A DNA stretch of 64,000 bases from NCBI GenBank assembly GCA_003215795.1, contig QCJV01000004.1:1-64000 (forward strand), given 5' to 3'. Both the position numbers and the translations under genes were made by a program. Source of the DNA: Prochlorococcus sp. AG-409-F19 (lineage in GTDB: Bacteria > Cyanobacteriota > Cyanobacteriia > PCC-6307 > Cyanobiaceae). The notes below the pieces were generated by a model. The model had not been told where the DNA came from. It saw nothing but the letters and a program-made list of their open reading frames with translations, and did not search any database. Position 1 is the stretch's first letter, and each line of letters starts with the position of its first letter. Positions 49,775-59,157 of this stretch are shown here, piece after piece.

Positions 49775-50296
49775 CTAGAATTGTTGCGAGGCTTCTAGTT
49801 GTAATGGACTTAGCTCAATTCTTTTTATTCTCTTATTTTCGTATACCCAAAAAATAGGTTTTGTAGCTTTTGCTCCTGTCAAACCTTTTCTTTCTCGCAG
49901 GCTTACAGGAATAAACTCTTTGTTGGGGTCAAAGCCCTGTTTTCTTATTGATTGATTGATAACAATACTTCCTTCTTTCCCTGAAACTGATCTGTGATAA
50001 GTCCCTATAGGAATTTGCAGTGCTCCCATCTCTCGCCTTAGAAAAATCACATGATGAGGTTCATCCCATGATGGATTTAGCAAAGTGAATGTTCTTTTGC
50101 CTTCGATAACTAAGTTATGATCAACTTGAAACTGGTGTACATAATATTGTTCATATTCCTCGTCATTAGGAGGAGATGTCGCACTTCCACGATGCATAAC
50201 TACATCGCAACCATTCGATGCTCTTACTCCTGCATCGAAGAAAGTAACCTGAGGTGTTTCTCTGAAAATTTGAATAGGGGTGAATTCAAGATGCAT
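49775..50296 (-). CDS. Cupin-like protein, second copy (separate gene)
   Basis: 173 aa. QVTFFDAGVRASNGCDVVMH, YYVHQFQVDHNLVIEGKRTFTLLN, EPHHVIFLRREMGALQIPIGTYHRSVSGKEGS: a double-stranded beta-helix pattern with clustered His that suggests a cupin fold. It is about 60 percent identical by eye to residues 135-300 of the fused protein at 58.2 kb. Its own ATG has an AGGAGG ribosome site (around 50303). It follows the OsmC pseudogene leftward. Confidence 0.75.
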   Translation of the reverse strand: MHLEFTPIQIFRETPQVTFFDAGVRASNGCDVVMHRGSATSPPNDEEYEQYYVHQFQVDHNLVIEGKRTFTLLNPSWDEPHHVIFLRREMGALQIPIGTYHRSVSGKEGSIVINQSIRKQGFDPNKEFIPVSLRERKGLTGAKATKPIFWVYENKRIKRIELSPLQLEASQQF

Positions 50297-50309
50297 TTTA
50301 ATACCTCCT

Positions 50310-50670
50310 TTTGTTAGTGATCCAATGGACTGTGATCTTTAATGAGCTTTTCAGGCTTCTTATTACCGGGCAATCTTTAGTTAATTTCTGAAGAACTTTA
50401 ACCTCTCTATCGATAAATCAATAGGCATAAAAAGTTGAATAGAAATAGAATCAATTGCCCTGGGTCCTTTTAGAGTCATCTTTTTATTAACCTCTGCTGT
50501 TATCTCTCCTATATCCCAACCTTCTCTTTTAGCTGCAATACCCATAACTGTCAGAAAACATATTCCCAACGCGGTTGCGACTAGATCAGTGGGTGCGAAA
50601 TTGTAACTTTCTCCGTCGTGATCTATAGGTGCATCGGTTGTTAGTGTTTGCCCTGAAGGAGTATGGAGAG
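50310..50670 (-). pseudogene. OsmC-like gene, frameshifted
   Basis: Translating leftward from about 50670 gives LHTPSGQTLTTDAPIDHDGESYNFAPTDLVA and GICFLTVMGIAAKREGWDIGEITAEV, then MPIDLSIERLK, where the frame breaks; the other frame continues VLQKLTKDCPVIRSLK. One missing base near 50395 explains this. The first Cys (GICFLT) and second Cys (KDCPV) of the OsmC active site are both present but in different frames. An in-frame TAG also cuts the N-terminus. Compare the intact copy at 58.2 kb. Confidence 0.8.
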
Positions 50671-50711
50671 CCTATGTATGTAGGTTCCCAAGATATTTCA
50701 AATAATCTTGT

Positions 50712-50882
50712 TTACACTTCATACAACTTGCAGTTGGCTTTTGTCGGATTGCTAAGGCATTCTTCTTCCCACTTGAAATTTTTATCTGCTTCTGGTCTTG
50801 GCAAATTGTAATTGAAATCGTGCATCCTCCAGACGTCACTTACTGCTCCGTTAAGGATGGTGAAAGGTGATACCAGCTTCAT
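50712..50882 (-). CDS. CP12-tail micro-protein, copy 1 (56 aa)
   Basis: Starts MKLVSPFTILNG with a clear GGAGG upstream and ends WEEECLSNPTKANCKLYEV. The end has the CP12 C-terminal pattern, Cys-x8-Cys followed by (K/R)xY(D/E); in CP12 this loop is redox-controlled and grips GAPDH. The N-terminal half of CP12 and its PRK-binding part are missing. It is the first gene of the cassette with OsmC and cupin, paralogous to that at 58052. Confidence 0.75.
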   Translation of the reverse strand: MKLVSPFTILNGAVSDVWRMHDFNYNLPRPEADKNFKWEEECLSNPTKANCKLYEV

Positions 50883-50911
50883 GATCCTCCTTGTCGATTG
50901 CTAAGATATAT

Positions 50912-51318: not shown

Positions 51319-51648
51319 GTGATTTTGTTGTTCGCATTCGTTGTGATGTATTCAGTTACTCGTTTCTCTCTTGCTCCTTCTTTCTATCGTCCTGTCTATG
51401 TCATTTCTGATAGCGAGATGGCTCAATTAAAAGTTCAACAACATCAAGATGAACTTGATTCAGTAGTTGATCAACGAAAAAGACTAGAGGACGCTTATGA
51501 GAAGCAGAGAACACATTTGCTTGAGAGAGAAAAATTTATTAAGAGTGAGTTAAAAACTCTTGCTCCATCTGCAAGTAACCCTGTTAAAGAAACAGTAGAG
51601 AAAGCAGTTGATGCAATTAAAGACACTGCTAAGAAAGTAGTCGCATAA
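51319..51648 (+). CDS. Membrane-anchored coiled-coil protein, copy 1
   Basis: 109 aa, GTG start. A short hydrophobic N-terminus (ILLFAFVVMYSVTRFSL) is followed by VYVISDSEMAQLK and a Glu/Arg/Lys-rich coiled coil (KRLEDAYEKQRTHLLEREKFIKSEL), ending VEKAVDAIKDTAKKVVA. A shorter paralogue with a probable frameshift lies on the other strand at 57542-57793. Function unknown. A clear terminator follows at 51667. Confidence 0.7.
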   Translation: MILLFAFVVMYSVTRFSLAPSFYRPVYVISDSEMAQLKVQQHQDELDSVVDQRKRLEDAYEKQRTHLLEREKFIKSELKTLAPSASNPVKETVEKAVDAIKDTAKKVVA

Positions 51649-57793: not shown

Positions 57794-58051
57794 AGGAGAA
57801 AAGAATGAGTCGAAGAGAACTGTGTCAAATTAGGATGGGTACATGATGTTCCGTGCAGGAACAGTATTATTTGCCTCTATTTTTAGAAATCATTAATCAT
57901 GTAAACTGAAGAAATATATACGGTAAATATCACTTAAGACGTTTAAAAATACTTTGATTAGTAAGGACCGTACAGTCTAAATACTTTCGTGAAAGCCCTA
58001 TATGTAATTTACAAGAATGTGTTAGAAATGACTTAACCGAATAGGAGGATT

Positions 58052-58216
58052 ATGAAACTCAGAACTCCTTTTACAGTCTTTCCAAATCCACTGAGAGATA
58101 TTGACTATCTTCATGATTTCTCTTATCAATTACCAAAACAAACGCAAGATTTGTTTTGGGCAGAGGAATGTAAACTTCATCCTGCTAAATCTACTTGTAA
58201 ACTCTACGAAGTGTAG
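58052..58216 (+). CDS. CP12-tail micro-protein, copy 2 (54 aa)
   Basis: MKLRTPFTVFPNPLRDID to AEECKLHPAKSTCKLYEV, with AGGAGG just upstream. The end repeats the CP12 tail pattern Cys-x8-Cys-K-L-Y-E. It is about 40 percent identical to the copy at 50712 and also comes first in its cassette, before OsmC. Confidence 0.75.
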   Translation: MKLRTPFTVFPNPLRDIDYLHDFSYQLPKQTQDLFWAEECKLHPAKSTCKLYEV

Positions 58217-58245
58217 ACAGAATTCTTTGTCGTTATTTAGGGGAT

Positions 58246-59157
58246 TTGCATACTGAAGCTCAGCATGTGCATTCTGGGCAAACACTTAGGACCGATGCAC
58301 CTGTTGATCATGCAGGAAAAGGAGAAAATTTTGCTCCGACTGATTTATTGGCAACATCAGTAGGGACTTGTTTCCTTACAGTGATGGGAATTGCAGCAAA
58401 AGAAAAAGGTTGGGAATTAGGTGAGATAACAGTTGAAATTGAAAAGCAGATGACAACTCGTGGTCCACGCAAAATTGAATCTTTATTACTACAAATTGAG
58501 ATGCCAAATAACTTGGAACCTGATCAATTAAAGGTTCTTCAAAAGGCTACGAAGGACTGTCCTGTTTTGAGAAATCTAGATGACTCAATACGAATTAACG
58601 TACAGTGGAATCAATGGAAAAGTAAAAAAAAGACTTCTCTAAACTTTGTCCCCACGAATGTGTTTAGGGAAACACATCAAGTTACTTTCTTTGATGCAGG
58701 AGTCAAGGACTCTAATGGATCTGATGTGGTCATTCATCATGGAAGTGCAATTTCTCCTCCATATGACGATGAAATTGAGCAGTATTATGTGCATCATCAC
58801 CAGGTTGACCACAATTTGGTCATAGCAGGTAAACGTACTTTTACCTTGCTCAATCCCGAATGGGAAGAGCCTCATCATGTGATTTATCTCAACCAGCGAA
58901 TGGGTGCTCTCCAGATACCTATTGGTACTTATCACCGATCTGTTTCAGGGCCGGAAGGTAGTATTGTGTTGAATCAAGCTGTTAGAGACAGCGATTTCGA
59001 TCCAGCTAAGGAATTTAAGCCAGTTAGTTTGGGACATCAAGCTGCTTTGCAGAAAGCAAAAGCAGCCGATCCTGTTTTTTGGATTTGGGAAGATGGAAAA
59101 ATCAGAAGATTTAAAGTTGCTGATTTTTCAAGTGGTAAGAAAAAGATCACGGCTTAA
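58246..59157 (+). CDS. OsmC-cupin fusion protein
   Basis: 303 aa as called from a TTG. Residues 1-122 are OsmC/Ohr-like: SVGTCFLTVMGIAAKEKGW with Cys42 and TKDCPVLRN with Cys105, the pair that reduces hydroperoxides. Residues about 138-300 are the cupin-like part seen separately at 49775. A run of eight adenines sits at the join. The frame extends upstream to a TAA at 58198 and encodes ILCRYLGDLHTEAQH, which looks like an OsmC N-terminus, so the real start may be an ATT (58222) or the called TTG. Confidence 0.82.
   Translation: MHTEAQHVHSGQTLRTDAPVDHAGKGENFAPTDLLATSVGTCFLTVMGIAAKEKGWELGEITVEIEKQMTTRGPRKIESLLLQIEMPNNLEPDQLKVLQKATKDCPVLRNLDDSIRINVQWNQWKSKKKTSLNFVPTNVFRETHQVTFFDAGVKDSNGSDVVIHHGSAISPPYDDEIEQYYVHHHQVDHNLVIAGKRTFTLLNPEWEEPHHVIYLNQRMGALQIPIGTYHRSVSGPEGSIVLNQAVRDSDFDPAKEFKPVSLGHQAALQKAKAADPVFWIWEDGKIRRFKVADFSSGKKKITA

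Follow-up and report, generated by a model that had tools for sequence, protein, structure and literature searches.

To our knowledge, Euplotes provides the only natural examples of +2 frameshifting at a stop codon. In bacteria, synthetic +2 shifts and stop hops were reportedly obtained by Weiss and colleagues in Escherichia coli in 1987 (cited in PMC5009743), and the efficiency of a +2 hop in bacteria is usually low. In Euplotes, +2 frameshifting at AUA_UAR by re-pairing on the overlapping codon has been reported, and a stimulator was not required (PMC10235951). A large 2016 review treats −1, −2, and +1 shifts and bypassing; for +2 shifts, we found in it only a cited title on constructs. In a non-exhaustive survey of the literature we found no described natural bacterial case of a two-base forward frameshift at a stop codon.

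Here we describe a conserved junction in Prochlorococcus at which such a shift may take place. It joins a small peptide with a CP12-like C-terminal tail to an OsmC-cupin reading frame. CP12 proteins are a family in which forms with only the C-terminal cysteine pair, CBS-CP12 fusions, and cyanophage CP12-like proteins are known (PMC3906501). Our literature search found no report of OsmC together with CP12.

Cassette layout and distribution

The window, a 64,000-nucleotide stretch of one contig of Prochlorococcus sp. AG-409-F19, comes from an incomplete genome assembly of 912 kb (54% complete). The initial annotation described a three-gene cassette (tail peptide, OsmC, cupin) present twice, leftward at 50882-49775 (copy A) and rightward at 58052-59157 (copy B). 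The order is indeed the same in both places, and both peptides begin with MKL, end with CKLYEV, and carry the C-x8-C pair as described, but the two copies differ from each other. In copy B, OsmC runs on into the cupin with no stop between them, so that the two supposed genes are a single ORF. In copy A, the OsmC is a pseudogene, because two 1-nt deletions (after 50699 and after 50400) and an in-frame TAG (50674-50672) separate it from the intact sister locus L087, which is 96% identical and served as the reference. Features of both copies are given in Table 1. Two related small proteins (51319-51648, plus strand, and 57793-57542, minus strand; VISDSEMAQLKVQQHQDELD and VVSDSQLEEIKYKQRQEELD) are encoded divergently beside the two cassettes, which suggests an inverted duplication of larger extent.

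Table 1. Features of the two cassette copies (positions in the window)
Feature	Position	Strand	Evidence
Shine-Dalgarno AGGAGG of copy A tail gene	50886..50891	−	Sequence
Copy A CP12-tail-like peptide, 56 aa, C-x8-C, stop TAA	50712..50882	−	ORF
Copy A GTGTA junction (GTG TAA)	50713..50717	−	Sequence
Copy A OsmC pseudogene	50298..50715	−	Alignment with intact sister locus L087
Copy A stand-alone cupin gene (173 aa) with its own AGGAGG and ATG	49775..50296	−	ORF, sequence; structure model (pLDDT 88) with cupin matches
Shine-Dalgarno AGGAGG of copy B tail gene	58043..58048	+	Sequence
Copy B CP12-tail-like peptide, 54 aa, C-x8-C, stop TAG	58052..58216	+	ORF; relatives at 52 OsmC-linked loci
Copy B GTGTA junction	58211..58215	+	Invariant at 52/52 loci; four more divergent loci
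Copy B OsmC-cupin fusion ORF, 314 codons counted from GTA	58213..59157	+	Translation, Pfam OsmC, codon-position constraint
Copy B cupin part of fusion ORF	58636..59154	+	Aligned to the copy A cupin and further relatives; phrog_9052 match

Homologues of the tail peptide (E below 1e-8) were found in many related genomes, with OsmC and then cupin downstream in most of the fetched loci. The search for this order in other genomes, which had been put forward with the initial annotation, thus bore it out: the order is constant at more than 50 loci in related genomes and is not a product of chance. The copy B layout was found at 52 distinct loci of low-light Prochlorococcus; two of the genomes that have it, G002 and G089, are closed. 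Among related loci, a Shine-Dalgarno sequence precedes nearly all tails, and several OsmC genes besides that of copy A have decayed. Synechococcus genomes have adjacent OsmC and cupin pairs without a tail, and in some other Prochlorococcus the tail precedes the cupin and no OsmC was detected in the interval. In the latter arrangement (L094, L149-L152, and L183), about 420 nt separate the tail gene from the cupin gene, and L094 holds a second tail-like ORF in this interval. At one OsmC-linked locus (L370) the second Cys of the tail is replaced by Trp and GTGTA is kept; the replacement could be a single-cell sequencing error. No viral carrier of the GTGTA junction was found in IMG/VR. Phage P-TIM68 (NC_028955, 129293-129439) encodes a homologue of the tail peptide that is 50% identical and annotated as hypothetical.

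The OsmC assignment holds, with a match to Pfam PF02566 (E 7e-16), a solved relative (2pn2), and two candidate catalytic cysteines, C53 and C116, invariant in the aligned set; its scores are far below the NCBIfam cut-offs for the Ohr and OsmC subfamilies. The cupin-like identity is likewise supported by modeling: the copy A cupin gave a confident fold model that resembles solved cupins; Foldseek paired it with archaeal phosphoglucose isomerase and CapF, among other cupins (E about 5e-6, TM 0.4 to 0.5), and the sequence carries a P-x-G-x2-H motif. A sequence search of the cupin against the PDB returned no match, and the model of the whole OsmC-cupin protein was too poor for use (pLDDT 50). Both cupins have homologues (~50% identity) in cyanophages, where the annotation reads hemagglutinin (hn) or redox protein (phrog_9052), and relatives are encoded on many marine viral contigs.

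The CP12 likeness of the tail stands for its end only. In hhalign, the last 20 residues align to the CP12 C terminus over 20 columns (probability of 39% and pairwise E of 3e-4) and show the C-terminal C-x8-C of CP12 type with a Tyr-acidic end, yet the tails gave no match to Pfam CP12 (PF02672) up to E 1; when the window's own genome was searched, the separate CP12 was the sole match. The tails lack the AWD_VEE core and the N-terminal cysteine pair, and some cyanobacterial and phage CP12-like proteins are also without certain classical CP12 features (PMC3906501). Considering the OsmC match, the conserved cysteines, the cupin model, and the alignment of the tail to the CP12 C terminus, the redox module proposed in the initial annotation, in which the tail would sense thiol state and OsmC would reduce peroxides, is plausible.

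The GTGTA junction

Overlooked at first were two properties of copy B: its OsmC-cupin frame has no ATG, GTG, or TTG start ahead of the first conserved beta strand, and a conserved GTGTA overlap joins this frame to the tail, with which it is out of frame. The GTGTA consists of the last tail codon, GTG, and the TA of the stop codon; within it, GTA is an overlapping Val codon in the +2/−1 frame and opens the OsmC frame. Wherever an intact OsmC is linked to a tail, its frame is shifted by −1 (equivalently +2) relative to that of the tail and opens just a few codons ahead of the tail stop.

At all 52 loci with an intact OsmC the tail ends in GTG, a codon that makes up 0.10 to 0.19 of Val codons elsewhere, and the stop that follows is TAG (42/52) or TAA (10/52), never TGA (0/52). 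Among the long ORFs of the window, 12 of 41 stop at TGA and 9 of 41 at TAG, so that TAG is enriched at the junction (42/52 versus 9/41). Of 32 conserved residues whose codon degeneracy is four-fold or higher, the Val of the junction GTG is the sole one with 100% codon conservation. Its third base underwent no change on the tree of the 52 loci; the mean over 37 four-fold sites, this one included, is 8.1 changes, and the minimum elsewhere is 2. The first two bases, GT, are invariant as well (52/52), and the corresponding means for other tail codons are 4.8 changes at position 1 and 2.9 at position 2.

This conservation goes with OsmC. GTG-TAR ends 52 of 52 tails with an intact OsmC and 4 of 25 without (Fisher 3e-15), and even for the closest sister tails the present-to-absent count is 4/4 versus 52/0 for OsmC-linked tails (Fisher 1e-4), although both Fisher values overstate independence because the loci are related. 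Lone tails end in many different residues. Four divergent loci of g56 genomes with a different tail type read GAA GTG TAA and thus also contain GTA; lone tails related to these end in DD or EG.

At nearly all loci the OsmC frame contains no ATG, GTG, or TTG between the upstream stop and the conserved CRYLGDLH segment, which is the first conserved strand, and a canonical start within 6 codons is absent from 51 GTGTA loci. The TTG inside the first conserved segment, which was the choice of the ORF caller, was rejected as a start since it is missing at several loci with an intact OsmC. In 11 of 11 tail-less Synechococcus orthologues a start codon, ATG or TTG, stands exactly at the GTA position; the high-light-like g17 and the larger-genome g29, both outside the cassette, likewise carry ATG there. 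The OsmC frame itself remains open at the 52 loci. Parsimony changes per site (2.87, 1.61, and 6.43 at codon positions 1, 2, and 3), with the constraint spanning 115 OsmC codons, clearly point to protein-coding constraint on OsmC-cupin in this frame. Directly after GTA, the first codon encodes D or N (T once) and the second only K or R.

A separate set of OsmC genes is found in about 20 g56 genomes, including G178 (L336-L339, L353-L369, and L372). They are tail-less, many have no in-frame ATG, GTG, or TTG, and a conserved AGG-N7/8-AUC (or AUU) lies downstream of a TAAAAT box, which suggests a non-canonical AUC/AUU start. These genes warn that the OsmC family may do without a canonical start by other means, a point that counts against the frameshift considered below.

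A candidate +2 frameshift and alternative readings

Because GUG-UAG/UAA is strictly conserved and OsmC lacks a normal start codon, a two-base forward slip at the stop is probable in our judgment. We put at about even odds the reading that tail and OsmC-cupin ORF together form a single recoded gene, in which a +2 frameshift would yield a fusion protein. Typing of 33 of the 39 tRNA genes in the closed genome G002 yielded Val tRNAs with the anticodons UAC and GAC only; therefore GUG should be read by the UAC tRNA through wobble and GUA as a full match. At the end of the tail, peptidyl-tRNA-Val(UAC) would sit on GUG by a wobble pair with UAG or UAA next. In a fraction of passages it could release GUG before termination, move two bases downstream, and re-pair on the overlapping GUA with full Watson-Crick complementarity, while the slow stop UAR waits in the A site. 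We take TAG to be the weaker, RF1 stop. Decoding would then go on in the +2 frame to give ...KLYEV-DRILCRYLGD..., a CP12-tail-OsmC-cupin protein in which a single Val is kept, and the remaining ribosomes would terminate and leave the free 54-aa tail. The same hop at copy A-type loci would give tail-OsmC, with the cupin translated from its own start.

Among features of known +2 frameshifts, a second ORF conserved as coding without its own start and a conserved site for P-site re-pairing are both found here, and a stimulatory element (RNA structure or SD-like) is not: we found no conserved RNA structure around the junction and saw by eye no slippery run or SD-like stimulator there. Transcriptional slippage was discarded as a source of the shift, since the junction contains no homopolymer. 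In one genome (L076/L137), tail, OsmC, and cupin share a single frame, a 371-aa ORF in which the tail cysteines are lost and an internal ATG is present; this case favors the view that a single protein can comprise tail and OsmC, although the internal ATG could be the start. Somewhat short of even odds is the fuller proposal that GUG_UAR to GUA by tRNA-Val(UAC) is a conserved programmed bacterial +2 frameshift, in which the stop would set how much free tail is made relative to fusion, possibly tuned by release factor 1 or the state of tRNA-Val. What we infer from comparing sequences is the hop, a fusion protein, and whatever redox role this protein may have.

The main competing reading, which we consider unlikely though by some way the best of the alternatives, is a separate OsmC initiated at a non-canonical GUA and coupled to termination of the tail, the weak start keeping OsmC low. 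GTA does sit where the orthologues carry ATG or TTG, the tail-less OsmC of g56 genomes likewise lack canonical starts, and the GUAG/GUAA overlap shares the geometry of the common AUGA start-stop overlap, which is why coupled initiation has to be weighed. Non-canonical initiation at GTC under IF3 control has been documented for Streptomyces sigR (PMC5472188), where the GTC start keeps SigR low. However, a GUA start requires nothing of the tail codon but its final G, so that any NNG would do, and the invariance of GT at 52/52 loci is left unexplained. The absence of TGA, which would give a normal GUG start at this position, is equally unaccounted for unless weak initiation is itself selected.

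It seems improbable that OsmC is started by reinitiation after the tail stop at the fourth codon of the frame, an Ile codon that is AUU or, rarely, AUC. ATT or ATC is present at 51 of 52 loci, and for the tail-less g56 OsmC a start at AUC/AUU behind an AGG-like SD seems plausible; yet at the tail-linked loci one has CTT instead, no SD was seen by eye, and the invariance of GTGTA is not explained. The codons ahead of the Ile vary as coding sequence does, with silent or conservative changes, and the coding behavior of codons 1 and 2 therefore disfavors an AUU start. We give similarly little weight to the reading that OsmC is not usefully expressed and that the products are limited to the tail, plus the cupin in copy A-type loci: the copy A pseudogene and the other decayed OsmC loci would agree with it, but not the strong codon-position constraint maintained over 115 codons with open frames. 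Least probable is a fusion made by slipping back one base, or by some other slip before the stop is reached, which would suit a frame that is equally −1 to the tail and would also give a fusion product, but neither GAA nor GUG is able to re-pair one base back, a TGA (TAT GAA) closes the −1 frame two codons before the stop at many loci, and an extra Val would be added.

Comparison with known systems

Should the +2 frameshift be real, GUGUAR, one short site kept in many low-light Prochlorococcus lineages, would offer a clean bacterial model of P-site re-pairing without stimulators. By hop or by GUA start alike, the correct start of this widespread gene is beyond standard gene callers, and a CP12-like redox tail would be linked to an OsmC enzyme.

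The tail resembles the CP12 family in its C-x8-C followed by a Tyr-acidic end, and small CP12-like proteins and fusions are known there; unlike in that family, it has no Pfam CP12 match and would be N-terminal to OsmC, joined by recoding. The OsmC part shares with OsmC/Ohr proteins (PF02566, 2pn2) the domain match and two conserved cysteines, and differs in being fused to a cupin and in its lack of a canonical start. Streptomyces sigR (PMC5472188), which bears on the GUA start, likewise has a non-canonical GUN codon and belongs to an operon that is redox-related and translationally coupled; sigR, however, has its own SD, uses GUC, makes no fusion, and has no stop overlap described, whereas the Prochlorococcus junction has GUA.

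As in the E. coli constructs of Weiss et al., the peptidyl-tRNA would move forward at a stop codon, although those sites were engineered and the GTGTA site is evolutionarily conserved. The closest likeness is to Euplotes, where a UAR stop is also preceded by a NUN codon and the P-site tRNA is proposed to re-pair with an overlapping NUA in the +2 frame. Euplotes, however, is a ciliate with altered termination and hundreds of such sites, whereas the Prochlorococcus case concerns a bacterium, one gene family, and a move from GUG to GUA that would exchange a wobble for a Watson-Crick pair.
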